From Nanobdellota archaeon (lineage in GTDB: Archaea > Aenigmatarchaeota > Aenigmatarchaeia > QMZP01): 64,000 bases of DNA. Below, in pieces: positions 8,787 through 48,295 of the stretch (positions are counted from its first letter, which is position 1; the number at the start of each line of letters is the position of its first letter). The notes below the pieces were generated by a model. That model saw only the letters and a program-made list of their open reading frames with translations, ran no database searches and had not been told where the DNA came from. The stretch is taken from positions 248,001-312,000 of the forward strand of contig JAHIVW010000003.1 in the NCBI GenBank assembly GCA_018816245.1, written 5' to 3'. The position numbers and the translations under genes were made by a program.

Positions 8787-9002
8787 GAAAGGTTTGTATA
8801 CTTTATTATATAGACCTGTATTATGGAGCGTAATCTTTAAATAGCTGACGGTCGGGGGGGGCTTTGTGTCAAATGTAGCTTTTGTGTCAAAAGTCTGATT
8901 TCTGTGTCGGAAGTAGTCAAGATACAAGAAATGTATACTCGAGTATAGGCATGTTATAAATAACGTCTCAAACATACCGTCTCCGACATAGGAGGTGATT
9001 GA

Positions 9003-9200
9003 ATGAACGTTATGTGTTCGGAGTGCCGAGATCCTGACAATCCAGTTATGGGATTTACTAAGAAAGATGAATACTTTGAATTCATTTGTGGGATCTGCTT
9101 CGATGTCCAAGAGAAAGAGAAAAGACCTACGACATCAAGGAAGCCACCAGCAGAAGAGCTTGCCAATCTCCCTAAATTTACTACTCTTATCAAATTGTAA
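9003..9200 (+). CDS. small Cys-rich zinc-binding protein, unknown
   Basis: MCSEC...FICGIC paired CxxC; RBS-like AGGAGG upstream. Confidence 0.5.
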   Translation: MNVMCSECRDPDNPVMGFTKKDEYFEFICGICFDVQEKEKRPTTSRKPPAEELANLPKFTTLIKL

Positions 9201-9356
9201 TTTTCCATTATAGTGCCAAGGAGGATCAGCATATATTATGTCAAACTTTCTATTCGGCAGCTTAGGATAAAGACTTGGTAATGGATTTTGTTTTGTTCGT
9301 TTTTTAACATCTTCATTATAGATAGAATATCCAGTTATCATATTTTTTCTATTCAT
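9135..9356 (-). pseudogene. N-terminal fragment of MT-A70/DPPW-type adenine DNA methyltransferase
   Basis: KFDIIYADPPWHYNGKLQFDKSSK catalytic DPPW motif, then ends at 73 aa. Confidence 0.6.
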
Positions 9357-9426
9357 TTTGGCTTTGTGTCATATATACCTAAATTTGCCTACTTTTGGCA
9401 CAAGAAGGAAACTTTTGACACAGAGG

Positions 9427-9798
9427 TCAAGATTTGGTTTTTTCAGAGATGTATTCAATGGCCATTTCATAATCCATAGAGTTAAAACAGCGCCTCGAAC
9501 TGCTACGTCCCATAGGCTCATGACCGATGCATAGAAGAGTTCCTTTTCCTTCTTTCAACTCTTTGTGATAGAGCTCATTCAATATTATGTAGATTTCAAA
9601 ACCACCTTCTTTGCACGCGGTGTTAGAGCATTGTATCATAGAACGGAAATCGTTCTTACTGAGTCTTGTGTTGTATTTTTCATAACGGTGCTCGTTTGCT
9701 TTCAAAACAATATTCTTGATTCTTGGATAGGCTTTTGAAAAGGTATCGTAAGAGGGTCCTGCGAAGACTCTCTTGGACGGGTCGAATGTGGTTCCCAT
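9427..9798 (-). CDS. hypothetical protein
   Basis: 123-aa open frame with plausible amino-acid composition only. Confidence 0.35.
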   Translation of the reverse strand: MGTTFDPSKRVFAGPSYDTFSKAYPRIKNIVLKANEHRYEKYNTRLSKNDFRSMIQCSNTACKEGGFEIYIILNELYHKELKEGKGTLLCIGHEPMGRSSSRRCFNSMDYEMAIEYISEKTKS

Positions 9799-9820
9799 GA
9801 GAATGTCCTAATGTACAGGT

Positions 9821-10045
9821 TTAAATTGGCAAGTTCCTGTCCTTCAGTTCGCACATCTCCTGTATCAAGACACAGATGTTGTGGCACAGGATTTTCAGCA
9901 ATACCTCGTTGTATTGGGCTGTTTTGGTTTTGCTCTTTACCGAGTCCCCAAACTTGGTCTTCACCATGTGGAACACGGTTTCCACATTGGAACGCTTATG
10001 GTAGTGGGCGAGGAACTTCTCCCGATTGAACACTTCCCGAAGCAC
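9821..10045 (-). pseudogene. C-terminal fragment of DDE transposase
   Basis: HKRSNVETVFHMVKTKFGDSVKSKTKTAQYNEVLLKILCHNICVLIQEM typical transposase C-terminal block; no N-terminal part nearby. Confidence 0.72.
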
Positions 10046-19845: not shown

Positions 19846-20214
19846 ATGAAGATAGTCGTAAGTGCTTCAGGTCCGGATATTGAAAGCACCGTTGATGAAA
19901 AGTTTGGCAGATGTCCCTATTTTATTGTAGCAGAGATCGTGGACAAGACCATTGTAAGTCACAAGAGTATTGAAAACACATCCACAAAACAAATGACTGG
20001 CGCAGGCACCACAGCGGCACAGCTGGTTGCTGACATGAACGTCGATGCAATCATAACCGGTAATATGGGTCCAAGGGCATTTACTATCTTTCAGCAGCTG
20101 GGTATAGCGGTGTATGAAGGCAGAGGCATCATAAAAAAAGCCGTGCAAGACTTTATAGCCGGGAACCTCCGAAAAATGGAAAGTGCAAAATGTCCTAGAC
20201 ATATGTTTTCTTGA
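19846..20214 (+). CDS. NifB/NifX-family (dinitrogenase Fe-Mo cofactor biosynthesis-like) protein
   Basis: MKIVVSASGPDIESTVDEKFGRCPYFIV...TGAGTTAAQLVADMNVDAIITGNMGPRAF. Confidence 0.9.
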   Translation: MKIVVSASGPDIESTVDEKFGRCPYFIVAEIVDKTIVSHKSIENTSTKQMTGAGTTAAQLVADMNVDAIITGNMGPRAFTIFQQLGIAVYEGRGIIKKAVQDFIAGNLRKMESAKCPRHMFS

Positions 20215-32299: not shown

Positions 32300-34893
32300 C
32301 CGATCGCATTCTCCATTTCAAGGTCAATGAGCCGGTTCAGTTCAATTGCGTATTCAAGCGGCAGCCGCTTGGCCACCGGCTCCATGAACCCTTGCACAAT
32401 AAGTTTGAGTGCCTGCTCTTCGGTCAGGCCGCGGCTCATTAGGTAGAAGAGTTGCTCTTCTGCAATCTTTCCGACCGTTGCCTCATGGACAACGCTCGCT
32501 GTCTGCTCGTTCACCTGCATTGTGGGCACGGTGTTCGAGATACTGTGCTCGTCAAGGATGAGGGCGTCGCAGGACACGCTTGTTTTGGTGTCTGTCGCGC
32601 CTTTTGCAACCGCCACCTGGCCGCGGAACGTGGAGATGCCGCCGTCAATGCTGATCGACTTCGCCTTGACCACCGAGGCGGTGTTCGGCGCGCGGTGGAA
32701 CACCTTTGCTCCAGTGTCTTGGTGCTGTCCTTTTCCTGCGAACGCGATCCCGAGGTAATCGCTTCGTGCGTTTTCGCCGAGCAATACGGACGCGGGGTAC
32801 AACATGGTCACAGCGGAATTATGAACAAGAATACCGTTAGCAACAAAATTATGAGATCCTTCAACTTCGATATCATATGTTGGTTCAATGTCCAACGGAA
32901 TTATTTCGTCAATTCGTGCAAAGCCAAGATGATCGCTACATTTTGAACAAAAATGTAACCCATGTGAGGAAGAAAAACTTCTTCGTGTAGTTAAACTTTT
33001 TAGTTTTCTTTTATAAGTTGCACTCTTTGTTGGAATAAGGAGAACCCTTTTTCCGTTAAGCAGAATGCGATATGAGTTGTTTGCATGAACAATATAATTC
33101 AAAATCTTCATGTTTCGTTCTTTTCTGTGAACAAAGATTCGTGAGATGCCTATTCCACAGGATAGTGCCAATAGTCGGACATCTTCAAGAAGTTCCTTAC
33201 TAATACTCGTGAGATACATTCCTCCTTTTTCAAGATGACCGTCAGAATCCAACAAACCAGCAAGTAGTGACAGACGTTGACTTTCTGGGAGCGAATAAAC
33301 CCAAGTTGGAAGTCTCTTAGTTTTTGCTGTTCCTCGGAAACCAGTCTTCTCGAGAAGTTCAATAAGGATATTGGAGTTAATGACAATAAATCGGTCTTTT
33401 TGATAGCGAACAACATAGTTGAATAATTTTTTAATTGTCAAAATGAGTTGTTTTCTTAGGTCGCTTGTTTCAGGAATTGCGATATTTATTTTTCCACCAC
33501 CTCTTTTAGGTTTCCATATGTTTCCATCACCAACAAAAATACCGAAAAACCACATCAGATCATTTGTTGTATAAGGTGGATATGAAAGATTGGAATAGAG
33601 ATGATCTATTTTCATTTCGAATTTATTGTATTGGTTCTTGCTCTGTGTTTTTCTATTTTTTGAAGATATAAGGGGCAATCGATAAGGCTTTCCTGAATCC
33701 GGCAACGACTTAGAGATCGCAATAATGTCCCCTTTTTTTAAATGATCGAGTTTTGTCCATCTTGTTCTAAATCTACCCTTCCGTAGGTGGTGGGGAATTA
33801 TGTCGCGTTCCATTTTGAGGAATGGGTGATTACCGCTGGCTTTGAGATCACGACCAGCAACCTTGATTTTATATACCCTTTTTCTCTCTGAATAAATGGT
33901 ATTGGTCACCGTTGAGGGGACAAATCTTTTTGTTTTTTCCTCAAGTGTGTAGATGCTGTCACCGACTCTAAGTTCGCTAATTGGAATTGGTCCTCTGAGA
34001 TTTGTGAATACCTTGGTATCTCCGGTGAGGCAACCCATGTTGCCGTTGACCCATTCCATGATCCCGGCTCGCTCGACAATGGCCCGCTTGGTATTGAGAT
34101 TATAGACATTCTTGCTCCAGTTTTCAATAGAGGAATAACGCATTCGGGCATTCGGTTTAACATAAATTTCAACACAACCTGCATGAAGTGCGGATGTTGT
34201 GTATTGTACAGCGGAACAGCCTTCAACATAATGGAGTTCTGCACCTTCATCAACAATGATCAATGTGTGTTCAAACTGACCGCCGCGTTCTGCGTTCATG
34301 CGGAAGTAGGCCTGCAGCGGCAATTCGATCTTTGTGTTCTTGGGAACGTAGATAAATGAGCCGCCAGACCAGACTGCAGCATGTAACGCCGAGAATTTAT
34401 GCAAGGCGATCGGGACGCAACGGTTCATGAAATACTGTTTTACGAGATTTGGATGTTTGTGTACTGCTTCATCCATATCGAGGAAAATAACACCCTTTTT
34501 CTCGAGATCTTCTCGAAGTTTGTGATAGACGACATTGCTTTCCAGTTGCGCTCCTGTTCCTGCGAGGACGTTCCGCTCGGCTTCAGGAATACCAAGTCGT
34601 TCAAAGGTTTCCTTGATTTCATCGGGAAGGTCATCCCAGTTGTTCGTCTTCTGTGCACCCGGTTCTGCGTAGAAGATAAGGTTTGTCAAGTCGAGTCCAG
34701 AGAGATCAGGTCCCCACGTGGGCAGGGGTTTCTCGTTCCAGAGCGCGAGGCCCCGCAGCCGGATCTTGAGCATCCACGCCGGCTCGTTCTTTTTCTGGGA
34801 AATCAGCCGGACCGTCGCTTCCGTGAGGCCGGGCGCGGTCTTGAACCTGAGCCGTTCCGGGTTCTTGTGGTCGAGCTGGGATTGCATGGTCAT
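32296..34893 (-). CDS. sufB: SufB with intein
   Basis: SufB exteins (MEWVNGNMG / SAVTMLYPASVLLGENARSD; HEATVGKIAEEQLFYLMSRGL). Confidence 0.97.
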   Translation of the reverse strand: MTMQSQLDHKNPERLRFKTAPGLTEATVRLISQKKNEPAWMLKIRLRGLALWNEKPLPTWGPDLSGLDLTNLIFYAEPGAQKTNNWDDLPDEIKETFERLGIPEAERNVLAGTGAQLESNVVYHKLREDLEKKGVIFLDMDEAVHKHPNLVKQYFMNRCVPIALHKFSALHAAVWSGGSFIYVPKNTKIELPLQAYFRMNAERGGQFEHTLIIVDEGAELHYVEGCSAVQYTTSALHAGCVEIYVKPNARMRYSSIENWSKNVYNLNTKRAIVERAGIMEWVNGNMGCLTGDTKVFTNLRGPIPISELRVGDSIYTLEEKTKRFVPSTVTNTIYSERKRVYKIKVAGRDLKASGNHPFLKMERDIIPHHLRKGRFRTRWTKLDHLKKGDIIAISKSLPDSGKPYRLPLISSKNRKTQSKNQYNKFEMKIDHLYSNLSYPPYTTNDLMWFFGIFVGDGNIWKPKRGGGKINIAIPETSDLRKQLILTIKKLFNYVVRYQKDRFIVINSNILIELLEKTGFRGTAKTKRLPTWVYSLPESQRLSLLAGLLDSDGHLEKGGMYLTSISKELLEDVRLLALSCGIGISRIFVHRKERNMKILNYIVHANNSYRILLNGKRVLLIPTKSATYKRKLKSLTTRRSFSSSHGLHFCSKCSDHLGFARIDEIIPLDIEPTYDIEVEGSHNFVANGILVHNSAVTMLYPASVLLGENARSDYLGIAFAGKGQHQDTGAKVFHRAPNTASVVKAKSISIDGGISTFRGQVAVAKGATDTKTSVSCDALILDEHSISNTVPTMQVNEQTASVVHEATVGKIAEEQLFYLMSRGLTEEQALKLIVQGFMEPVAKRLPLEYAIELNRLIDLEMENAIG
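32818..34032 (-). other. intein in SufB with LAGLIDADG endonuclease
   Basis: Starts CLTGDTKVFTN, ends VEGSHNFVANGILVHN with +1 Ser; FFGIFVGDGNI and LLAGLLDSDGHL; 405 aa; AT-rich versus flanks. Confidence 0.95.
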
Positions 34894-35625: not shown

Positions 35626-35743
35626 CCTCCAACCTTCATTACTCGCCTATGACCCCTCGTGTTGCGCGCATTTCGGGACCAGGCGAGACCAACACACACC
35701 AGACGAACGTATTAATACATTGGACTAAGAAAATAACTCGCGT

Positions 35744-35815
35744 GCTGTGTTGGTGTAGCGGTTAGCATAAGGCCCTGTCACGGCCTTGACCCGGGTTCGA
35801 ATCCCGGACACGGCG
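35744..35815 (+). tRNA. tRNA-Asp (GTC)
   Basis: GCTGTGT/ACACGGC acceptor, CTGTCAC loop, GGTTCGAATCC. Confidence 0.94.
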
Positions 35816-35924
35816 TACATCGGTTTTCCGAATCCGTAGCGTCCGGGAGTTGGAGATTCTTCGAATCCGCACCCCTTGAGCGAATCGGGCTGTCCCCGCG
35901 GCAAACGCACGTGAACGTGGCGAG

Positions 35925-37298
35925 GTGAGCAGGGACATGCAGCGGGAAGTCATCCACGACTACGAGCGAAGGCTCGAGTGGCAGTACCGGCAGATCCGGA
36001 AGGCGCGGATCCCGGAGGAGAACAAGGAGGTGCTGGTCGCGTTCGACCGCTTCCTGGTCGCGGAGGGGCTTTCGCTTCCCCGTCGGGCCAAGCTCCTCCA
36101 GCACTGCCTCCTGTTCAACAGGTCATACCTGCCCGGGCTGTTCCGGGAGGCGACCACGGATTCAATCTGGGATGCGGTGATCAAGCTTGAATCGTCGAAG
36201 CTGGCCCCCTGGACCAAGCAGGGCTACAAGGTCGCGGTCCGCAAGCTGTTCAAGTTCGTGACGTGGGGGAACGAGGCCCTGCGCCGCCGGGACTACCCGG
36301 AGATCGTCGCGGGCATCCGCATCGGGGTCAAGCGGCGCGACCAGGTGCGGGTCCGAACGGGGGACATCAGGCGCGCGGCCGCGTGTACCGGGGTCCAACT
36401 ACGAATCGAGGCCATCGGGCTTCCGTACGGCGAGGCCTTCCAGCGGTTCATCGATCCATCGTCGCCGCTCGACATCGTCGTCCTCGACGAGCCGTGGCTC
36501 CGGGCGTTCGGGGACGCGGCCGACGGCACTTTGTGCGCGAACCCGCCCATCCCGTTTAGCGCGAGCGTTATGGTCACGGCGTGGAATCCGGAGGCGTTCC
36601 GCCTTCTGCAAGAGACGACACCTGTCAATACCCCGATCACGTTCGATCAGATGCTCAAGTACGCCGTGGAATGTAAAGAATCGCCCCACGGCATGGTGAT
36701 CTCAGCGCAGTCAACCGAGCGGCTCGCCAACATGGTGCTTCAGAGCGCGCTCGCAGCGGGAGTTTCCCCGATTCGGGCGGACGCGACCGTGAACCCAGCC
36801 GCGACCAGCAACGCTTCCGAGCTCCTCAAGCAGAGTCTCCCCTATCCAACGAGAGTGTCGGGCGCGGACGCTCTCCGGAGAGTCGTGCAGGGTCGTGCCG
36901 GGTTCACTCCCACGTGGCTCTCGAACGTCGCGATGTTGTGCGGCGTGGACCCAAGGGCACGGGCGCTACGCATCGTGCCGATTGCCGGAGGGGGAGTGGA
37001 CGGGACCTGGTACCTTGGCGTCCGGCACCGGCCCTCGGTCCCTCCGGGTCTCGCCGGCCGGGTCGCTCGTCTTCTCGCCGCGACCTGCGACATCAACGAG
37101 CGTTTCCTTCTCGGCGCGGTCGATCCAGGGATCCTCACGGGGAAGCGCGAGCTTTCCGGTGGCGACCTTGGCGAGAGTCTCCAGCTCGACCCGGCGCGTC
37201 TTGCGTGGGCGAACCGCTGGCAGCGGCACACGAACATGGAATTCATGAGCTGGATCGACCGCCAGGGCGGCCGCCTCGCGAGCGCCGTTCTGGCCTAG
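35925..37298 (+). CDS. chimeric ORF: tyrosine-integrase core-binding domain fused to solute-binding-protein-like C-terminus (GTG start)
   Basis: N-terminus shared with the 26424(-) integrase fragment; after about residue 145 resembles extracellular solute-binding protein (DIVVLDEPWLRAFGDAADGTL...GFTPTWLSNVAM). Confidence 0.6.
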   Translation: MSRDMQREVIHDYERRLEWQYRQIRKARIPEENKEVLVAFDRFLVAEGLSLPRRAKLLQHCLLFNRSYLPGLFREATTDSIWDAVIKLESSKLAPWTKQGYKVAVRKLFKFVTWGNEALRRRDYPEIVAGIRIGVKRRDQVRVRTGDIRRAAACTGVQLRIEAIGLPYGEAFQRFIDPSSPLDIVVLDEPWLRAFGDAADGTLCANPPIPFSASVMVTAWNPEAFRLLQETTPVNTPITFDQMLKYAVECKESPHGMVISAQSTERLANMVLQSALAAGVSPIRADATVNPAATSNASELLKQSLPYPTRVSGADALRRVVQGRAGFTPTWLSNVAMLCGVDPRARALRIVPIAGGGVDGTWYLGVRHRPSVPPGLAGRVARLLAATCDINERFLLGAVDPGILTGKRELSGGDLGESLQLDPARLAWANRWQRHTNMEFMSWIDRQGGRLASAVLA

Positions 37299-37854
37299 AG
37301 CTGGCATAGCGTTCCATGTGTCTGTCGTGGAGCAAGGCCCGGTTCAGTATCCGGTGCTGCTCGCTGGCCAAGAGGTCATAGAACCAGCGCCTCCCTGGGT
37401 ACACGATGTCGCCCTCGTGGCGGGGCTTGCCCTCGATGAACCGGTAGCCGTGCCTGCTGAGGAGGTCCTTCATCTCCTCGGGCCAGGGAAGCTCGAGGAA
37501 GTACCAGTCATGATAGGGCCGCCCGAACAGCCCCTTCTTCTCGACGTAGAGCACTGGGACGTCGTCGACGATGCCGCCCCTGCTGTCCCACACCTTGTAA
37601 GTGGCAAGGGGGAGCCGAACGGATCTATGATTTCCCTCGATGTAGAAGTGCTTGCCGAGGGAGTCGTACGAGAGGGTCCCGAGGTGCCACTCATAACTCC
37701 AGGGACTGAGGTCGTACAGTCTCTCCCGGTCCAACTTCCGGGACCGCCTCCATGGCCTCTCTTCGGGACGAACCGCGGCAAGGGAGACGAGCTCCACCCT
37801 GTGGCCGTTGTACTCGCGCAGGCCTTCCTCGTCGATGAACGGCTTCGGACGCAT
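37243..37854 (-). CDS. conserved-looking hypothetical protein
   Basis: 203-aa ORF of plausible composition, overlaps 3' end of chimeric integrase ORF. Confidence 0.5.
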   Translation of the reverse strand: MRPKPFIDEEGLREYNGHRVELVSLAAVRPEERPWRRSRKLDRERLYDLSPWSYEWHLGTLSYDSLGKHFYIEGNHRSVRLPLATYKVWDSRGGIVDDVPVLYVEKKGLFGRPYHDWYFLELPWPEEMKDLLSRHGYRFIEGKPRHEGDIVYPGRRWFYDLLASEQHRILNRALLHDRHMERYASSRPERRSRGGRPGGRSSS

Positions 37855-37960
37855 CGGACTTCACCGATACGCTGTTCACCGAAAGACGTAAAAAGGTGAC
37901 GGGTAGCAACTCGCGGCAAGATCGCCTACGAGAGGAGTTGATCAAGTCGCTCCACGGCTC

Positions 37961-38467
37961 TTGTCGGATCCGACGCGACTCCGGGTGACCTGGAAGGAGC
38001 GAAAGGAGTGGTCGGACTGGGCCCACCTCAGCGAGGGGGCCTACGTCCTTCGATCCAATGTGGCGGACTGGACTCCCGAGGAACTCTGGCGGACCTACAT
38101 CCAGCTGACGGACGTCGAGGCGGCGTTTCGCGCCCAGAAGAGCGATCTGAATCTGAGGCCGATCTGGCATCACTCCGACGAGCGTGTCGAGGGCCACATC
38201 CTGGTCTGCTTCCTGGCCTATGCGCTGTGGAAGACCCTGGAGGGCTGGCAGACGCGTGCCGGACTCGGCAACAGCCCCCGGACCTTGTTCGATGAACTGC
38301 GCAAGATCTCGTGCGTGGACGTGCTGCTACCCCTGACAAATGGAAAGGAGATGAGGCTGCGCTGCGTCGCGAGACCCGACCACGACCACGCAATGCTCCT
38401 CGACCGCCTCGGCCTGAGGCTCCCTCAGCGTTTGCGGTGTCCAGCGACTCTGCAGTCTGAAATGTAG
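37961..38467 (+). pseudogene. C-terminal fragment of IS1634-like DDE transposase
   Basis: [72 protein letters not shown]. Confidence 0.8.
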
Positions 38468-38598
38468 TGAAAACTCGGGGCCTGAAACGCCTCTGTCGGC
38501 CGATTCTCGGCGTTCTACGCCTCCAAGTGTCCAAGTTGGGTTAGCGCACGCATTGCGAACGACGCAATCTATTTCTGCACGTGCGATCCACTTAATAC

Positions 38599-39324
38599 AT
38601 GGATCTCTTTGGGTACGCATTGTACTCGTCTTGGAAAGGAATACCTGCACCACCATGTGCATACGAAAGAGATGACGGCTCACGCGCACCCTGCAACATA
38701 GGCGATTACTTCACGGTAAGTGCCGAGGACAAGCAAGCGCTCCGCCTTGCAAGAGGACGAACACTCGATATTGGCTGTGGAGCTGGATCACACGCGCTAC
38801 TCCTTCAGCGCAAAGGAATCGAAGTGCTCTGCATCGATACTTCGTCGCTGGCCCTTCAGGTGTGTAGAGGTCGCGGCTGCAAGCGATGTAGGCAGATGAA
38901 CATCTTCAGACATAAGCTGCATCCGAGTTCGTTCGACACCATTCTGCTCATGGGGACGAACGTTGGCCTGGCTGGGACTTTGGACCGATGCAAAAGGCTC
39001 TTTCGGATCTGCTCGGAGCTTGCAAAGCCCGGAGCACGCCTGATTGTGACGTCCAAGGATGTCAGGACACGTACCAATAGACAACAGGTTCGCTACCATC
39101 GCTCCAATCTAGAGGCAGGGAGATTCATTGGAGAAAGGCGTATCAGATTCACCTATGGAAGAAAAACGGGAAACTGGTTCAAATGGATCTTCATCGACCC
39201 GGTGACCCTGCGAACCACAGCTCACGCATCTGGCTGGGAGGTTGAATCGATAATCAACGCGCAACGCGGCCGATATTCAGCTGTGCTACATCTTGCCAGC
39301 TTGACGCAACGGACTCTACGGTAG
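38599..39324 (+). CDS. class I SAM-dependent methyltransferase
   Basis: RTLDIGCGAGSHALLLQRKGIEVLCIDTSSLAL. Confidence 0.8.
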   Translation: MDLFGYALYSSWKGIPAPPCAYERDDGSRAPCNIGDYFTVSAEDKQALRLARGRTLDIGCGAGSHALLLQRKGIEVLCIDTSSLALQVCRGRGCKRCRQMNIFRHKLHPSSFDTILLMGTNVGLAGTLDRCKRLFRICSELAKPGARLIVTSKDVRTRTNRQQVRYHRSNLEAGRFIGERRIRFTYGRKTGNWFKWIFIDPVTLRTTAHASGWEVESIINAQRGRYSAVLHLASLTQRTLR

Positions 39325-39481
39325 TCATGATCACTGCCCTCGCTAGTTTCTGTTGCGTCGCCGACGAGAACAATGCGATTCGGCGATTCTCAAACAGTTG
39401 AGGGCGAATTGGCTTGAGATGACAAGAGGCCTCGCAATGATTGCCGGTAATCAATCCAAAGCAACCAAAGGAGACCTCTTG

Positions 39482-40144
39482 ATGCGAACCAAGATCAATA
39501 CCCAGCCCGAGTTCGACTCTCAACCCTCGAATCTGCAAGTCACCAACGAGTACTTCGCACGGTACGAAGCAATCTCCCAGATTCTCGATCAGAATCCGGC
39601 GATCGTGGGTTTCGCACACCGGGATCTGGAGGCCGCCCTGGCCTCGTCGGACGAGGAAGGGCGCGATGGAAGTTGCCGCTTCAGCTCCGACTCGATCCTT
39701 CGCATTCTCATCTGCCAGATCCTCGAGGGCGAGACCCTTCGCGGCACGGTCATTCGCGTGGACGACATTGCCGATAGCGCGGGCAGGAGCCAGGACCCGA
39801 TCAATCGTGGCTGCGCTGACGCGGAGGAGCTTCTCCCGAACCACCTCGTCAAGCTGAAGGTGGCCATGGGAGGCGAGCTAGCGGCCTTTGTCTTTGGGGC
39901 TGGGCAGAGCTCAGTGCCTCTCAATCCGTACTGCCACCTGCAGGTGAATCCAGTAGTCCCCGGTGCGCTGGTCGGAGTCGCGTTGTCGTCTGGAGGTCCT
40001 GGAGAGGGGTCTGCAGAGGTCGGCGGAACAGTTCCCATTGGGATGGGTCCGAGTGACGTCTATGTTCAGGTCCTGATTCGGGACACGACGAGTCCGATAG
40101 GTATGTCGTCGACGAAACCGATGAGGATCCATATCGCGCCTTGA
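39482..40144 (+). pseudogene. chimeric ORF: transposase N-terminus fused to secreted-protein C-terminus
   Basis: YFARYEAISQILDQNPAIVGFAHRDLEAAL...SDSILRILICQILEGETLRGTVIRVDD (transposase N-term), later PLNPYCHLQVNPVVPGALVGVALSSGG (extracytoplasmic type). Confidence 0.55.
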
Positions 40145-40201
40145 TACAGGGCCGTGAGGCACAGACATTTAAGGAGCGTAATATAATTAGTCACGAGGGG
40201 A

Positions 40202-41590
40202 ATGTCTGCGGGGAGGGTCTTTCCATTCGCAGTTGTAGTCAGTTCGCTCTTTGTCATGCTGACAGTGGCGATATCGATCAGTCCAGTGTCAGACAATGCT
40301 GCGGGCGAGCTTGCACGAGCCGGTGTAGTTCAGGCTGGTGCAGTCCAGTCTCCGAAGCACTTCCTAGCCGTGGGTTCTCCGAGTTTCAATGCAGCAGGTG
40401 ATTACGAGGGCAAGGCATACGCATTCGACAAGGGATCAGGTCGGCTGATGCGGTCGTGGCTCGGTGTATCTGTGCACGGGACCTATGGAGTGAGGCCAGA
40501 ACGTCTTGGTCTCAGTGTGGCGGTCGTCGGCGATATCGATAAGGATGGATACGACGACATTCTCGCGGGGGCGGCTGCACCGGAGATCTACGGGAGGGCG
40601 TATCTGTACTCAGGAAGAACAGGAAGGGTCATCTTCTCGTTCGAAGATGATCCTGGACAGCCAAGCGACTACTTCGGTTCCGCGGTCGCGTGGGCTGGTG
40701 ATGTGAACAAGGATGGATGGGATGATCTTGCAATCGGTGCGAGTGAACATCTCGATCCGGTGAAGGGAACAGTGGGGAAAGCCTATATCTACTCAGGCCG
40801 GGACGGATCGGAGATTCGTTCGTACCTGGGAGAGCAGCCGTTCGACTTCTTTGGATGGGCTGTTGCGAATGCCGGGGACGTGAACCAAGACGGCTGGCCC
40901 GATCTCATTGTCGGTGCGAGATGCTGGGATCCGGTCGGGGAGTTCTGGGCGTGTGACGGGAAGGTCTATGTGTATTCTGGGAAGGACGGACAGCTCCTGT
41001 ACGAGTGGACAGATGGTGCTGGAGGCTTCGGTGGAGCAGTCTCTGGTCTCGGTGACGTGAACGATGATGGTGTCGACGATGTGATCTATGGGGGAAACGG
41101 GGCTGACGGAGGTCGGGGAATCGTGTACGTGCGGTCCGGACAGGATGGGAGCGTATTGTATAGCATATCCGGAGCCGCCGACTACGAGGCGTTCGGACAG
41201 GCGGTATCTGGTGTCGGCGACGTGGATCTGGACGGGAGTGCAGACTTCCTGGTTACCGGTCCTCAGTACGAGGTGCCGGGCGGTGCATCCGATATTGGGA
41301 GAGCTGTCCTGTACTCAGGGCGGGATGGGAGTGTCATCCATAGCTGGACAGGGGAGGAGCAGGCGGATGAGTTGGGACATGCTGTTTCCGGGGCCGGTGA
41401 TGTTGATGGTGATGGCGTGCCAGACGTTCTTGTCGGGATCCGGGATCAGCTGACAGGAGGTTGTCGCGAGTGCACATTCAACGGCTGGGCGTATGTTTTC
41501 AGTGGGGCAACAGGACAGAAGCTGTATGAGTGGGAGGGAGAACATGACCAGAGCCTTTTCGGGACAGCGGTGTCCGGCAAGTGGTGGTAG
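40202..41590 (+). CDS. secreted FG-GAP/integrin-alpha-like repeat protein
   Basis: Signal peptide; repeated GDVNKDGWDDLAIGA / YSGRDGS blades. Confidence 0.88.
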   Translation: MSAGRVFPFAVVVSSLFVMLTVAISISPVSDNAAGELARAGVVQAGAVQSPKHFLAVGSPSFNAAGDYEGKAYAFDKGSGRLMRSWLGVSVHGTYGVRPERLGLSVAVVGDIDKDGYDDILAGAAAPEIYGRAYLYSGRTGRVIFSFEDDPGQPSDYFGSAVAWAGDVNKDGWDDLAIGASEHLDPVKGTVGKAYIYSGRDGSEIRSYLGEQPFDFFGWAVANAGDVNQDGWPDLIVGARCWDPVGEFWACDGKVYVYSGKDGQLLYEWTDGAGGFGGAVSGLGDVNDDGVDDVIYGGNGADGGRGIVYVRSGQDGSVLYSISGAADYEAFGQAVSGVGDVDLDGSADFLVTGPQYEVPGGASDIGRAVLYSGRDGSVIHSWTGEEQADELGHAVSGAGDVDGDGVPDVLVGIRDQLTGGCRECTFNGWAYVFSGATGQKLYEWEGEHDQSLFGTAVSGKWW

Positions 41591-42095
41591 TGCAATCAAA
41601 GGGGTATTCCAGAGAATCGAGACTGTCTCTGGGGCTTGTCAGGGGCTGGAAGTGCGTTGGTAGGCGTCGGAGAGGGGTGTGCTTCTCGCATTTAGCAGGT
41701 GTGGCGACGTGCGGGTGTCCAGATTGCAGACCGGCGTAGGCGCGTGATTCTCGCGCCGCGAGAAGAACGGAGTTGAAAGCGGGGTGCCATCCGCTTGAAC
41801 AGGAACATCACAACAAGCCTGTTCGGGAGGGCAGCGTCGTCGTGAAGAACTCGACGATTGGGTCTACTCCCTCGCTGAGGCCGCGACTTTCGTCGCCGAG
41901 ATCAACCGATTCGCCGTCGTGCGGAAGCTCGACGTTCCCGGCCTCTTCCTCACGAGACACTTCCGGGTGCGGGATTCAGACCGCTTCGCGGAGATCATCC
42001 CCGACATCATCGAGCAGCTCCCGTCGCACCCGAACCTCATCGTCGGACGCAAGCTCGGAAGGAACATCCGGTGGTCGCTCTCGTCCCCCGCTGGC

Positions 42096-42689
42096 TCAAA
42101 CCGCGAGCAGCGCTTCGTGCAGCCGGACCATCGCCAGGGTGTCCTGCTTGCAGTACTCCCTGAGCAGGCCGAGGAGCCGCTTGGCCTCCTCCTCCGGGTA
42201 CCGCCCCATCGCAATTCGTGCAAACACGGCGGAGGCGGCATCGCCGTCCCCGATCTCCATGCCCTCGTCCGGGTACAACATCGCGAGTCGCTGCAGGCCC
42301 GTGGCGACATCGAGAAGCAGATCATGAGACACTTCGGTCGCCTCCCACACCTCAGGGAGGGTTGTGACGGTCAGAGTCTTCGGCCGCTTCGCCGCGCAGC
42401 GCCTCCGGGCGTGATCCAGAAGGATCCGACCCATGGCCTGGGCCGCCGTTGCCATGAAATGTGCGCGGTCCCGCCAGTCTTGCGCCGACTGATTCCTGAA
42501 AAGGCGTAGGTACACTTCCCCGATGAGTGCTGTCGGCTGGAGCGTGTGGGACTCCCGTTCCGATCGCATCTTCTGCCCAGCAAGCCGCCGCAGCTCCGGG
42601 TAGAGGAGCTCAAGCAACCGCTCCTGGCCTTTCCGGTCGCCAGCGCGAATCGCCGCTAGTGCCGCGGTCACGTCGTCATGCACCGTCAT
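42096..42689 (-). pseudogene. chimeric ORF: bacterial ECF sigma factor (N-terminal) fused to DUF2779-like C-terminus
   Basis: ELRRLAGQKMRSERESHTLQPTALIGEVYLRLF...WRDRAHFMATAAQAMGRILLDHARRR then DGDAASAVFARIAMGRYPEEEAKRLLGLLREYCKQDTLAMVRLHEALL; no sigma region 4. Confidence 0.65.
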
Positions 42690-42752
42690 GGTCGTGTTGG
42701 GTCAGGGACTAGGGACTTGCACAACCACGTCCCTGTATCGCGCTCCGGTTCG

Positions 42753-42992
42753 TCACGATCGACGCTTGTGAAAAGGATGATCGGGCTCGAGGTGCAGAAT
42801 CGCATAGATGCCGCCGTTCGATGTCTCGATGACCTCCCTCTCGGGCCCGTAGAAGCCTCGATAGAACTCTAGCCGCGCCTCGCGCTTGAGGAACCTGTTG
42901 TCCACACAGTAACCGAAGATCTTCTCTGGCATCTCCGCCAACTCGTCGTCAGCAGCCGTCATTGCCCCGATGAGGTACGCCACGGAACGCAT
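42753..42992 (-). CDS. hypothetical protein
   Basis: MRSVAYLIGAMTAADDELAEMPEKIFGYCVDNRFLKREARLEFYRGFYG... Confidence 0.4.
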   Translation of the reverse strand: MRSVAYLIGAMTAADDELAEMPEKIFGYCVDNRFLKREARLEFYRGFYGPEREVIETSNGGIYAILHLEPDHPFHKRRS

Positions 42993-43108
42993 GAATCCTG
43001 TTGTTTTGGGTATAAATACCTTTTGCGTCGACATTTGGCGATGTAGGGGGCAGGGACCTCTGGCCGGCGGCTCCCATAGGGACAACTTACCGACCCTCTC
43101 CGCTCCGC

Positions 43109-43351
43109 TCACGACTCAAGCCGACCGGTCACGGCCGGAGCCAGCCAGCGCGCGATGAGCGCAAGGTCCTCCGGCCGGGTCCCGCAGCACCCACCGATGA
43201 TCCGCGCTCCCCGCTCGACCCATCGCTCCGCGTAGTCCGCGTAGGCTTCACTCGTGAGCGCCGGATCACGCGAGTAGCCGCTCGGGTGGCTCGGATCTGC
43301 TGCTTCGAGGTTGGCGTAGGCACCCGCTACGATGCCCGCATCGCCCGTCAA
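43109..43351 (-). pseudogene. C-terminal fragment of homocysteine S-methyltransferase
   Basis: LTSEAYADYAERWVERGARIIGGCCGTRPEDLALIARWL (zinc-binding GGCCGT). Confidence 0.75.
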
Positions 43352-43497
43352 CTCGATGACCTCACCGTGCCGTCCGGGAGGTAGCGCACGATCCCGTCCA
43401 CGTCCCAGTGGTATGCGGTCTCCCGCACAAGTTCGCGGAATCCGTCTCGCTGGACCCTGCCGCTGACGATCGCGGTCATCCGGATGGGCCCCGCCAT
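43348..43497 (-). CDS. acylphosphatase-like domain, short or truncated
   Basis: MAGPIRMTAIVSGRVQRDGFRELVRETAYHWDVDGIVRYLPDGTV. Confidence 0.55.
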   Translation of the reverse strand: MAGPIRMTAIVSGRVQRDGFRELVRETAYHWDVDGIVRYLPDGTVRSSS

Positions 43498-43501
43498 CTG
43501 C

Positions 43502-44224
43502 TCACCGGCGCCGGCCGCCGCTCGCCACCACGGCCTTGATGAGCTGCTGCATGTCCTTGCTGGACTGCCGGTGCTCGTCCCGAAGTTCCTGGAGCGCAGC
43601 CTCAAGGGTCTTCGAGATCTTCCCGTAGTTCCGGTCCAGCGTGTCGAAGTGCCTGGCGGTCTGCTGCGTGAGGTTGTCGACCTTGGTACCGACGCCGCGA
43701 ACGTCCGTCCCAACAGCATCCACCTTGGTGCCCACGGCCTGGATCTCGGTCCGTGCGGCGTCGACCTTCTCACCGACACCGCGAACCTCTTTGGCAACGG
43801 CATTCACCTTGTCACCGACACCACGGACATCCTTGCCGACGACATCGACCTTCTCCCCCACGGTGTCCATCTTCGCTCCGAGATCCTGGTTCATCTCCTT
43901 CACGTACCGGAAGCCAACGTCGAGCTTCTCCAGGATCCCCTCGTTTCCGGACCACAGGACCGTGAAGTCCGTGAACTCGCCGGTCGCCTTCTCCTTCGTC
44001 GAGGAGAGGTCCTCGATTTCGACCGGTGGAGGTACCTCCCGGACAGCCATCAGGAACTTCTGCAGCACCGGATCCGCCGCCTCGGCGACGATGCGAACCG
44101 ATCCGTCCGCCTCGTTCTGGACTGTGCCTCGGACGCGGTGCCGGTAGGCTTGCTGCTGAACAAAGTCCCGAAAGCCAGCGCGCTGAACAAGGCCCCGCAC
44201 GCTGACGACCATTCTGACCGTCAT
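43502..44224 (-). CDS. acylphosphatase domain fused to 14-residue-repeat coiled coil
   Basis: MTVRMVVSVRGLVQRAGFRDFVQQQAYRHRVRGTVQNEADGSVRIVAE; repeats VGEKVDVVGKDVRG / VGDKVNAVAKEVRG / VGTKVDAVGTDVRG. Confidence 0.75.
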   Translation of the reverse strand: MTVRMVVSVRGLVQRAGFRDFVQQQAYRHRVRGTVQNEADGSVRIVAEAADPVLQKFLMAVREVPPPVEIEDLSSTKEKATGEFTDFTVLWSGNEGILEKLDVGFRYVKEMNQDLGAKMDTVGEKVDVVGKDVRGVGDKVNAVAKEVRGVGEKVDAARTEIQAVGTKVDAVGTDVRGVGTKVDNLTQQTARHFDTLDRNYGKISKTLEAALQELRDEHRQSSKDMQQLIKAVVASGGRRR

Positions 44225-44593
44225 GCCACCCTCTTGGCGTCCGGGCTTCTTATGCCTTCCGCGAGCAGAGGGCCGGGAAGCCCGAACCCCCGAGCGTCGG
44301 CCCGAGGGCCCAGCCAACTCACGCGTCATCTGCTTCGCCCCGTTCCTGCATCTCCTCGGGCGCGATCTCCCGCAGCACCCCTGACGTCGCGGACCGGGGC
44401 CGACGGATCATCCGGCAGGCGTGCCTCAAGGCCGCAGCGGTGGTGGTCGGGCCGAGCAGGGAGGACCCGGCCGGGGACGTGATCCAGGTCGCGGAGAGGC
44501 TGGAGTCCTGGGTGCTGGGGGAGGAGCGATCCTCCTTCCTTCCGCCGGGAACGAGAGGTCGTCCGGGCTGCAGAACCGCGGAGGCGCGTGCGC

Positions 44594-44821
44594 ATGACAT
44601 TTAAGTCCGCGGAACAACAGGTGACCATGGTCCGACAAGAGCAGCTCTTGGCGCAGGTCCGCAGCGTCCAGCGAAGCGTCGTTGAACTCCGCGCCGAGGT
44701 CCACCACCTCCGTGACCTGGTGAACGACGCGGTCCTTTCGCCAGCGGAGAAGCGCCTGGTGGATCACACTCTCCAGAGCATCAAGAAGGGGGACACGCGG
44801 GACTTTGTCCCGTTCCCTTGA
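44594..44821 (+). CDS. putative RelB-like antitoxin
   Basis: LSPAEKRLVDHTLQSIKKGDTRDFVP; precedes RelE-like gene by 4 nt. Confidence 0.6.
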   Translation: MTFKSAEQQVTMVRQEQLLAQVRSVQRSVVELRAEVHHLRDLVNDAVLSPAEKRLVDHTLQSIKKGDTRDFVPFP

Positions 44822-44825
44822 AGCC

Positions 44826-45068
44826 ATGTCGCGGTTCTCGATCCAGATCCACCGGAAGGCGCAAGGGTACGTCCAGGGGCTCCCAGACGCCGCTCGCCTG
44901 CGAATCCGCCGTGCTCTGGACCTCCTGAGGGACGAGCCGTTCCCGCGCGGCGCCGTGAAGGTCATCGAGGATCCGGTCGGTGGCCCATCGTACACGGGAC
45001 TCGATCGACAACAAGTCCATCAGAGTTCGGTCCACGTCGGCATTGTTATTTTTTATATTTTTGGGTAA
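44826..45068 (+). pseudogene. RelE-family toxin, C-terminus lost at the AT-rich module boundary
   Basis: FSIQIHRKAQGYVQGLPDAARLRIRRALDLLRDEPFPRGAVKV then non-RelE sequence. Confidence 0.6.
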
Positions 45069-45163
45069 AGGATTATTGAAAGGCCAAATCTGAAAATTCT
45101 GGCTATTCCGGCTGATTTTGGCTGAAAGTTCCAATATATAAAGCTTCCTTACACCCGAAGAGA

Positions 45164-46036
45164 ATGAAAGATTTTGAAATAGTATCAATAGAAATCCCCC
45201 TAGAAAAAATTCAACCAGATCCCAACCAACCACGGAAAGACCTCGGCATCGATGAGGAGAACCGACTTATCAACTCAATGAGGGAAATAGGCCTTCGATC
45301 ACCAATCGCTGTGGTCAAGATTGGTGAAAATAAATACAGGCTTATCAACGGTCATCGGCGCTTTGCATGCGCTAAACTTTTGGGATGGAAAACGATCCGC
45401 TGCGAAATACACCCCGAAACTGAGGAAGGCGAGATCAAACGCCTTCGTTTCGACTTGCAGAATAATATTAGATCATGGAAGCCGCTTGAACGCTCTCAAG
45501 AGGTCAAACAAATCAAGGAATCGAAGAAATTTAAATCGAATAAGGAGCTGGCAAACTATCTCCATTACCCAGAAAATCTATTGAACCAATCTCTCTTTCT
45601 TCAAAGAAGAAGAGAGAAATATCAAAAATTAATGGACGAATTCGGATTAACGGAAACATATCAAGTTGAGTTTGTCCGGCTCGAGCCAAAAATCAGGCCG
45701 ATTAAAGAATTCACCTATGAACAGATCATTCTTAACTTGTTTGAACGGGTCAGACACCAGGTCATCCGTAGTGCGAAGGGTTTCCGCAAGTTGGGAACCG
45801 TTTTTCTCCGTGCTCATACGAATGAAAAGGAATTATATCGTTTTCTAAAAGACCCCGATATGACTGTAGACGAATTGACTCAAAAAACAACCCGTTCCGG
45901 TTTTATTCGTGATGCTGAAGGTCTCACAAAACGAATAACAAGTAAGTTCAATCAAGGCCTCAAACTCCAACCGGAAGATGTGTTTGTGTTGAGACCGCTT
46001 CGTGATGTCCTGATCAAATACTTGGGCGATAAATAA
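45164..46036 (+). CDS. ParB-like N-terminal nuclease/HTH protein
   Basis: IPLEKIQPDPNQPRKDL...LINSMREIGLRSPIAVVKIGENKYRLINGHRRFACAKLLGW. Confidence 0.9.
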   Translation: MKDFEIVSIEIPLEKIQPDPNQPRKDLGIDEENRLINSMREIGLRSPIAVVKIGENKYRLINGHRRFACAKLLGWKTIRCEIHPETEEGEIKRLRFDLQNNIRSWKPLERSQEVKQIKESKKFKSNKELANYLHYPENLLNQSLFLQRRREKYQKLMDEFGLTETYQVEFVRLEPKIRPIKEFTYEQIILNLFERVRHQVIRSAKGFRKLGTVFLRAHTNEKELYRFLKDPDMTVDELTQKTTRSGFIRDAEGLTKRITSKFNQGLKLQPEDVFVLRPLRDVLIKYLGDK

Positions 46037-47406
46037 TGATTCTGTTTCATCCGACTAAAGGCACAAAGAAGGCTGTTGCCTATTATCGACATTCTGATAG
46101 GGAAAAACAGGAAAATTCTATTTCTATTCAACGTGATCACGTGAAGAAATATGCTGCCCGATTTAATATCGAGGTCATATTTGAAGAATTTGATAAAGAA
46201 ACTGGTCTCGTTGGTCCCGATGAAAGAATAGGTTTTGGGCGGCTTTTTGATAACTGGATTAAAAATCACAATGCTCCGCATTTTGATTTTGTATTGGTTT
46301 TCGATGAATCGCGATGGGGACGTTTTCAAAATGACAATGCTGCTCCCCATTATGAATATCTTTGCAACGAACAAGGAAAGTATGTCATTTATGTGGAGAA
46401 TGGTATTTCTCCAGAAGACCAGAAGACGCAGCTCGGATTCAAGTTACATAAGTCAATAAAGAGACACATGGCAGCGCAATTCAGTCTCGATCTTAGCAAT
46501 AAAGTATATCACGGTTGTGTAAAGGTTTCACAACAAGGGTTCTCGGCGGGAGGCTCAGCGTGCTACGGGATGGTCCGCGTCTTACTTGACGTAAATAAGA
46601 ATCCTGTAGGGGTTCTCAAGAAAGGTGAACACAAGGCGATCTCCAATGCCCGCGTTACGTTCAAGCCAGCTGATGATAGGACATCGGAAACGGTGAAAGA
46701 GATATTCTTCCTCTTTGACAAGGGCATGCGTCTCGGGGAGATAGCTAAGCTTCTCAATGAGAGGGGAATCCCTTCTGCAAAGGGAGGTAAATGGAACGGA
46801 GAAAAGCTCCTTCGGATTTTGACAAATGAGACCTATACTGGCACGAGAATATATAATAAGACGTGGAGCCGCCTCAGACAAAAAACGAGATCTAATCCAC
46901 GTACCGAGTGGGTTGTGAAAGAGGAGGCATTTCCGGGGATCATCGATCGGGAGCTGTTCTTTCGCGTTCAGGAGCGTCTTTACTGGATGATGCCTTCTCG
47001 ATGGAAACAGGGCGTTTATGCTATCAGAAAGGCACATCGGCTAGTTCAGGATGACCTAAGAAAACTCTTGAATGAGTATAATGTTTCTGAAGACTATGTT
47101 TGCTATTTTCTGAGACAATTTCCAATTGTTTATGCTGTTGGTATTTCTCCAAAACCTTCAATACAATGTTGGTGCTTCACTATCCCAGATGAGTTGCGGA
47201 GATACCAATTCATTATAGGGATTGGTGTATCATTGAATCGTAAAGACCCTGTCGATAGAATATTTGTAATTCCATCACACGAATTGGGTTTGAGTAATAT
47301 TAGTGTGTTTTCTGAAAACGATACCGAGTTTTCAAAATATAAAATTGAAGAGGATAAGATCAAAGAAAAAATTTCACATCTTGCTCAAGCAGTTTTAGCT
47401 CAATGA
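46036..47406 (+). CDS. large serine recombinase
   Basis: AVAYYRHSDREKQENSISIQRD (catalytic Ser), DESRWGR, recombinase domain GEIAKLLNERGIPSAKGGKWNGEKLLRILTNETYTG. Confidence 0.92.
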   Translation: MILFHPTKGTKKAVAYYRHSDREKQENSISIQRDHVKKYAARFNIEVIFEEFDKETGLVGPDERIGFGRLFDNWIKNHNAPHFDFVLVFDESRWGRFQNDNAAPHYEYLCNEQGKYVIYVENGISPEDQKTQLGFKLHKSIKRHMAAQFSLDLSNKVYHGCVKVSQQGFSAGGSACYGMVRVLLDVNKNPVGVLKKGEHKAISNARVTFKPADDRTSETVKEIFFLFDKGMRLGEIAKLLNERGIPSAKGGKWNGEKLLRILTNETYTGTRIYNKTWSRLRQKTRSNPRTEWVVKEEAFPGIIDRELFFRVQERLYWMMPSRWKQGVYAIRKAHRLVQDDLRKLLNEYNVSEDYVCYFLRQFPIVYAVGISPKPSIQCWCFTIPDELRRYQFIIGIGVSLNRKDPVDRIFVIPSHELGLSNISVFSENDTEFSKYKIEEDKIKEKISHLAQAVLAQ

Positions 47407-47475
47407 AAGAAGTAGCAAACGTTTAATCAGGAACCACATAATAACTAAGAAAGGAAAGAATGTGATTTTAGTCTC

Positions 47476-47712
47476 TCAGTAAAACTCGTGCTCCGGCTTC
47501 CCGGTCTGCCGGATGATGCACCGGATCGCGTGCGGCACGATCGTCGGGCAGTGGCTCACCATCGTCGTGGCCATGCACTTGCCGCCGTCGTATTTTTTCA
47601 TCTTGAGATGCCGCCCCTTCACGTGCTTGACCTGAACGTAGCCGTTCTTCTTCAGAATGCGGATTACCCGGTCACGCGGTAACGGGCGGATTTTTCCTTG
47701 TATGGGACTCAC
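47476..47712 (-). CDS. hicA: HicA-family toxin
   Basis: DRVIRILKKNGYVQVKHVKGRHLKMKK...HCPTIVPHAIRCIIRQTG. Confidence 0.75.
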   Translation of the reverse strand: MSPIQGKIRPLPRDRVIRILKKNGYVQVKHVKGRHLKMKKYDGGKCMATTMVSHCPTIVPHAIRCIIRQTGKPEHEFY

Positions 47713-48064
47713 CTTGGTTGAGCGGCAGCTTGAACGGGACGGTCTTGATGCCGACCTGCATGTTCACGATCTGCCGGATCTCCGGCTTCTTCGTGTCCGG
47801 GTCGGTCATGTAGTCGTCGATCATGCCCTTGAGGCTCTCGATGGCCTCCTCCTCAGTCTTCCCCTGCGCGCACACATCGATGACCGGGGTGCTGGCGACG
47901 ACCCAGCCCGCCTCCTTGAAGGTGATCACCGGGAAGGGGACGGTCATGGCGGATTCCAACTGGGCCTTAATGAGCCGCCGCGCCGCTGGGGGGAGGCGCT
48001 GGAGCTGTGGGTCGTGCTCGATCTTCTTGATGACCTCTTTCACGGAGGGCTTGCTTTTGGCCAT
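47672..48064 (-). CDS. hicB: HicB-family antitoxin
   Basis: FPVITFKEAGWVVASTPVIDVCAQGKTEEEAIESLKGMIDDYM. Confidence 0.75.
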   Translation of the reverse strand: MAKSKPSVKEVIKKIEHDPQLQRLPPAARRLIKAQLESAMTVPFPVITFKEAGWVVASTPVIDVCAQGKTEEEAIESLKGMIDDYMTDPDTKKPEIRQIVNMQVGIKTVPFKLPLNQGESHTRKNPPVTA

Positions 48065-48225
48065 AGGGTACCTTTACTTCATGAGCTTTAAAACAGGAAT
48101 GGTCACTCTTGAGGGTGAGATGAGATCTTTCCTGAAACAGATAAAACCCTGAACTTCTAATAGAAGAAGAGAGACAGAGAGGAAACCACTACCAACGTAA
48201 CCGCCTTCTGACATTCGCTCGCCGC

Positions 48226-48239
48226 CCCGGACACGGCGT
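48226..48239. repeat. distal att copy CCCGGACACGGCGT
   Basis: Exact match to tRNA-Asp 3' end 35803-35816. Confidence 0.75.
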
Positions 48240-48295
48240 TGACCGGTTGGGGTTCGCCCTGTCGCTGTTGTCGAGAATCCACTGCTGTACAACCG

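Follow-up and report, generated by a model that had tools for sequence, protein, structure and literature searches.

The question raised by this locus is how a segment of distinctly lower GC content came to lie in a GC-rich region of an archaeal contig, and what the two genes that it carries are for. The window analysed here, a stretch of 64,000 nucleotides, belongs to a genome of 886 kb that is 88% complete; genes of archaeal type among the listed ORFs, together with the small size of related genomes, point to a probable DPANN archaeon. An earlier note, made from the sequence alone, had reported abrupt shifts in composition near 45040 and near 47470, and likelihood change points were fitted at 45042 and 47484, with a GC content of 0.407 between them compared with 0.657 in the left flank and 0.552 in the right flank. 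Exactly two genes, encoding a ParB-like protein and a large serine recombinase (LSR), are found between these points, so that a leader of 122 nt is followed by ParB (290 aa), then by LSR (456 aa) and finally by a tail of 78 nt. Both lengths, the common strand and the stop/start overlap TAATG were as the note had described them. Two more AT-rich dips occur in the window, at 33001-34000 (GC 0.375) and 9001-10000 (GC 0.39). The features of the segment and its borders are as follows.

45042-47484, no strand, AT-rich segment with the whole module, delimited by the change points
45042-45163, forward strand, AT-rich leader 5' of ParB, a candidate promoter, ParB site or att arm
45164-46036, forward strand, ParB-like protein with a CTPase-type N-domain, an HTH domain and a helical C-terminus (PF02195, 6e-14)
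46036-47406, forward strand, LSR with the invariant residue S20 (PF00239, PF07508), its ATG lying within TAATG at the ParB stop
47407-47484, forward strand, AT-rich tail 3' of the LSR stop, the site of the att repeat in relatives
44826-44970, forward strand, RelE-like N-terminal fragment, weakly supported
47476-47712, reverse strand, HicA-like toxin gene at the right border (PF07927, 6.9e-9)
47672-48064, reverse strand, ORF in the HicB position, named by position only and without a Pfam match

The left border had been read as the place where an insertion truncated a RelE toxin. The fragment is RelE-like, although its sole PDB match, 1wmi_A, covers residues 3-47 of 90 at an E value of 0.083, the entry being a hypothetical protein (PHS013) which we take to be an archaeal RelE; no Pfam family was matched within 44826-44990. 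The truncated RelE is therefore a weakly supported part of that reading. The match stops near 44970, about 70 nt short of the composition boundary. At the right border, the HicA-like gene lies on the strand opposite to the ParB-LSR pair.

The recombinase matched the Pfam families Resolvase (PF00239, 1.1e-7) and Recombinase (PF07508, 6.2e-26, residues 216-315) as well as an integrase in PHROGs (8e-38). Residues S20, R18, R93 and R96, which are catalytic, are invariant in the alignment of its clade. The N-terminal catalytic Ser and the recombinase domain recognised earlier are confirmed; the archaeal protein is, to judge by its sequence, presumably an active recombinase. Its predicted model (pLDDT 82) had the serine integrase complexes 9dxh and 9dxd as best Foldseek matches, and also matched Bxb1 over the catalytic and recombinase parts, with a further fold match of the catalytic domain to 6dgc. 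Residues 316-456 had no Pfam family match. A C-terminal zinc ribbon with Cys ligands, common but not universal among LSRs, is not evident in the clade, as the note had remarked of this protein: each member carries between one and four C-terminal Cys, none of them invariant. Comparison of the C-terminus with that of the three-gene clade described below gave hhalign E values of 0.04-0.07, suggestive of homology only, while the corresponding match between the two three-gene clades stands at 99%. Matches of the isolated C-terminus to PDB entries (kinases, E 0.2) were set aside as chance.

If the two genes form a unit, they should recur together, and the earlier note had proposed a search for the adjacent pair. 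Single-sequence peptide-pattern scans for LSR and ParB found nothing, while an alignment-based scan succeeded; full-length LSR relatives were found with a profile built from plasmid relatives, and extra loci by searching the same groups. These relatives, with 42-49% identity to the archaeal LSR, occur in Patescibacteria, Peribacteria, Lentimicrobiaceae, Taibaiella, Chryseobacterium and a viral contig. The pair is indeed conserved: 14 distinct loci in unrelated contexts, from the archaeon, Patescibacteria, Peribacteria, Bacteroidota and the viral contig, form one supported clade, and in all of them one ParB lies directly upstream of LSR, with no other gene common to all. The intergenic gap in intact loci ranges from a small overlap to 16 nt and the ParB identity from 31 to 45%; ParB is interrupted in L017/L208 and cut in L015 and L032. 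Copies are rare, being present in 2/299, 2/380 and 5/175 genomes of the groups sampled. The LSR is single copy in the archaeal genome, and a profile search of 156 genomes of its phylum gave elsewhere just short, scattered partial LSR matches.

Over the wider set of LSRs, a ParB or RepB partner accompanies the LSR in 138 of 175 non-redundant loci surveyed, arranged as LSR-ParB-RepB (100), LSR-RepB (17), LSR-ParB (7) or ParB-LSR (14); some of the 37 loci with no partner are cut by contig ends. The deeper relatives are LSR-ParB-RepB operons of Planctomycetota, Verrucomicrobiota, Proteobacteria and plasmids, in which ParB and RepB are PF02195/PF07506 proteins and LSR and ParB most often overlap by 4 nt (52 loci). 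Homology in one three-gene group ends, in eight loci (L056, L064, L070, L093, L129, L130, L131 and L152), just past a conserved hairpin about 200 nt after RepB; the hairpin is imperfect and the sequences diverge beyond it, and seven of the eight have a left-end palindrome followed by a small Cys-containing ORF. At one locus (L004, 5515-7299) the ParB and RepB partners are fused in one ORF of 594 aa. Rubripirellula obstinata carries near-identical LSR-ParB copies on different contigs of the same genome (L024 and L039), one with a truncated ParB, which suggests movement. Three Patescibacteria-type elements (L209, L210 and L242) have a ParB-methylase gene adjoining the pair; terminase-like genes are present in L209/L210 and type III restriction-modification in L210/L242, and these elements are possibly proviruses of Patescibacteria. 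Among isolated phages the three-gene form was seen in one unannotated faecal contig only, and the reading as a phage hallmark was therefore rejected. The methylase/ParB gene of Wolbachia phage WO is a different, phage-core gene.

The ParB-like protein matched Noc/Spo0J/ParB profiles, and its AlphaFold model (mean pLDDT 81) had Noc as its best PDB match. The CTP-pocket motif GHRR (GERR-type) is invariant in the clade, as is QNNxR wherever the alignment covers the motif. The Glu of the EN motif, aligned to the E of ENLQR in Noc/ParB, is replaced by Gln in 12 of 12 clade proteins and retained in the ParBs of the three-gene form. The equivalent change in B. subtilis ParB, E111Q, leaves a protein that binds CTP and closes its clamp without hydrolysis (PMC8494293). 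By its sequence, the clade ParB may thus be a clamp impaired in hydrolysis that remains close to its site. The roles known for ParB/Noc relatives, together with the RepB partition family supplying the third gene of the bacterial operons, would fit a protein for the partition or replication stability of an excised circle that is merely co-transcribed with the integrase. Hydrolysis matters in ParABS segregation, however, and the Glu needed for it is replaced across the clade, and no ParA-type ATPase was found in or near the module, the nearest candidate in the ORF list lying at 20211, about 25 kb off; we regard a partition role as unlikely. No conserved parS-like palindrome was identified in the leader.

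In two genomes from the Chryseobacterium genus search (G1003 and G858), the 13-nt core CCTCCAACTCCAC of the tmRNA 3' end occurs exactly twice per region and bounds islands of 36.9 and 26.0 kb respectively, one copy being at the tmRNA and the right copy 78-80 nt past the LSR stop. In the viral contig, a 17-nt repeat resembling a tRNA T-arm bounds 18.4 kb, and 55 nt separate its right copy from the LSR stop; an intact tRNA was not detected at the left copy. In all three relatives with definable ends, therefore, ParB-LSR is the last gene pair before a tRNA- or tmRNA-derived repeat of an island of 18-37 kb. This is the usual place of an integrase, and the pair is accordingly best read as an integration module. 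The LSR adjoins an ssrA att repeat in the relatives L206 and L207, whereas that of the window is associated with tRNA-Asp. A tyrosine integrase in mid-island and a small resolvase are present in both Chryseobacterium-group islands and could carry out the integration there instead. Much of the left part of the two islands (L237/L238 in G1003, L239/L240 in G858) is common to both genomes; the cargo of the G1003 island includes type III restriction-modification, GmrSD-type and Schlafen-AlbA genes. In L204, a short motif seen repeatedly after the LSR was set aside because it resembled a hairpin of the terminator type.

In the window, the corresponding boundaries are provided by a tRNA-Asp gene (35743-35816) and a copy of its 3' end:

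35803-35825, forward strand, left island repeat, the 3' end of tRNA-Asp (23 nt, 20 of them identical to the right copy)
48226-48248, forward strand, right tRNA-Asp 3'-end repeat, separated from the LSR stop by 820 nt

The exact 14-mer of this repeat is present only at these two places (35803 and 48226) and was contained in 0 of 2000 null sequences. The AT-rich module thus lies inside a 12.4-kb island (35743-48248), near its distal repeat and on the strand of tRNA-Asp. The distance of the repeat from the LSR stop is 820 nt here as against 55-80 nt in relatives, with HicAB in between. GC in the island reaches 0.67, and many of its ORFs are fragmentary. An ECF sigma factor (42096-42689, PF07638, 3e-31) is encoded within this island of an apparently archaeal genome, and an ORF at 35925-37298 that had been read by eye as a truncated tyrosine integrase was rejected, being without support from Pfam, PHROGs or the PDB. 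The sigma factor and other bacterial-looking genes at 36-45 kb would be accounted for if the GC-rich region and the module were bacterial DNA wrongly joined to an archaeal metagenome-assembled genome, but the repeat at its two ends derives from the 3' end of a tRNA-Asp belonging to the contig itself, with a 14-mer that is absent from the null sequences, the region sits within a contig of 555 kb, and the estimated contamination of the genome is 0.09%. An assembly chimera is, on this evidence, very improbable.

The earlier note had suggested that the two genes may be an undescribed mobile unit. The pair is real, coupled and conserved, and no description of it was found in the open-access papers searched; the two genes may also be mobile by themselves, although this is less likely. 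A free-standing unit of some 2.44 kb, brought into the GC-rich island by its own movement, would explain why both composition borders match the conserved unit (leader 122 nt against 110-116 nt, tail 78 nt against 55-80 nt), why DNA homology between close relatives is restricted to the pair (from 110-116 nt before the ParB start to the LSR end in two relative pairs), and why a RelE-like gene appears cut at the left. Against this, only one copy of the pair exists here, and likewise only one per genome or record in eight relatives; wherever ends are definable, the mobile unit proves far larger; and the 2.44-kb segment yielded neither an end repeat nor an empty site: no att repeats adjoin the pair in the window or in the whole genome, and the tail (47407-47484) holds no tRNA/tmRNA-type repeat. 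Definition of exact ends from empty sites, as the note had advised, failed for every copy. The right flank of L204 had a single stretch of 1.3 kb in common with genomes G889 and G996, with no synteny, and in three other genomes searched with the tmRNA flanks the left side was alike up to the tmRNA end and the right flanks were not. Independent movement of the two genes consequently appears rather unlikely to us.

The integration module may or may not still work. That it came in with the island and is now an inactive leftover would agree with the decayed look of its surroundings (short and fragmentary ORFs, a partial S-methyltransferase, RelE-like pieces) and with the lack of an att repeat at the expected place. 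Both ORFs are nonetheless intact, and the TAATG overlap and the conserved residues have been kept despite an LSR identity to relatives of no more than 42-49%, so that inactivity is doubtful.

The origin of the module is indicated by a maximum-likelihood tree of 84 LSRs, in which the ParB-upstream clade has a support of 100/100 and the Planctomycetota three-gene form is the next clade out. The archaeal LSR is sister to that of Peribacteria (100/99) and nested among bacterial sequences. Since it branches inside bacteria, the simplest reading is that the archaeal copy was acquired from them horizontally.

Taken together, we consider it probable that the AT-rich segment represents an integration module of bacterial descent, made up of a serine integrase with a Cys-poor C-terminus that is not a zinc ribbon and a co-translated ParB-like partner. 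In such a module, the substrates of the LSR would be an att site directly beyond the stop codon of its own gene and a chromosomal site, the latter in relatives being the 3' end of a tRNA or tmRNA gene; the target chosen in the archaeon is presumably of this kind. ParB would load near the att site or leader, forming a DNA clamp that depends on CTP and hydrolyses it weakly or not at all, and would regulate or recruit the LSR, as a putative accessory or directionality factor. In the archaeon, the module near the distal end of the decayed tRNA-Asp island might be the integrase of that island or a later insertion. Because unrelated bacteria carry the pair too, there as the outermost genes of tRNA/tmRNA islands, ParB is a strong candidate for a so far undescribed helper of an LSR-type integrase. 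More tentatively, and with less than even confidence, we propose that serine integrases working together with a DNA clamp of the ParB family make up a widespread class that has gone undescribed. In this class, CTP-loaded ParB, which is single and hydrolysis-impaired in this clade and accompanied by RepB in the deeper ones, would nucleate beside att and set the choice of target or the direction of integration and excision, and the class would have reached archaea as a compact two-gene cassette.

Factors for the directionality or targeting of serine integrases have mostly been discovered singly and do not appear related to one another. A ParB partner fixed beside the integrase over many phyla would yield a recognisable class, link the biology of CTP clamps to site-specific recombination and provide new integrase/helper pairs for genome engineering. 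The locus also places a bacterial-type integration module in a small-genome archaeon.

Several known systems invite comparison. IS607-type elements are likewise two-gene units with a serine recombinase, and the catalytic-domain fold match to 6dgc is shared with them; they consist of a small TnpA with an N-terminal HTH and TnpB, and have neither the LSR Recombinase domain nor a ParB. Similarity to the CcrA/CcrB recombinases of SCC is limited to a weak profile match (CcrB 2.6e-5), with equivalog scores of 23.1 and 15.5 for cut-offs of 900 and 700, and the clade has a single LSR with ParB in place of a CcrA/CcrB pair. Phage-type large serine integrases (SPbeta, Bxb1 and phiC31 type) share the Resolvase and Recombinase domains and include the best structural matches, 9dxh and 9dxd; the clade differs from them in a C-terminus without conserved Cys and in its ParB partner, and we know of no ParB-like protein among their directionality factors. 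With the ParB/Noc CTPases the partner shares the N-domain with GHRR, the HTH domain and the Noc fold, differing in the Gln of the EN motif, in having no ParA partner seen and in the fixed linkage of its gene to that of a serine recombinase. The closest precedent is provided by Dehalococcoides ssrA islands, whose integration module has the gene order DsiB, DsiA, RecF, ParBc, Mom and an RNAP-domain protein (PMC3146451). There, ParBc (about 210 aa) is the fourth of six genes, three on from the LSR, whereas ParB of the clade lies directly upstream; the six-gene order is absent here, only ParB and LSR being common to all clade loci, and DsiB is described as CcrB-like (PMC3146451). Both modules combine a ParBc-domain gene with a large serine recombinase that, at islands inserted into tmRNA, adjoins the att repeat; a small resolvase, present in both Chryseobacterium-group islands too, is a further point in common.
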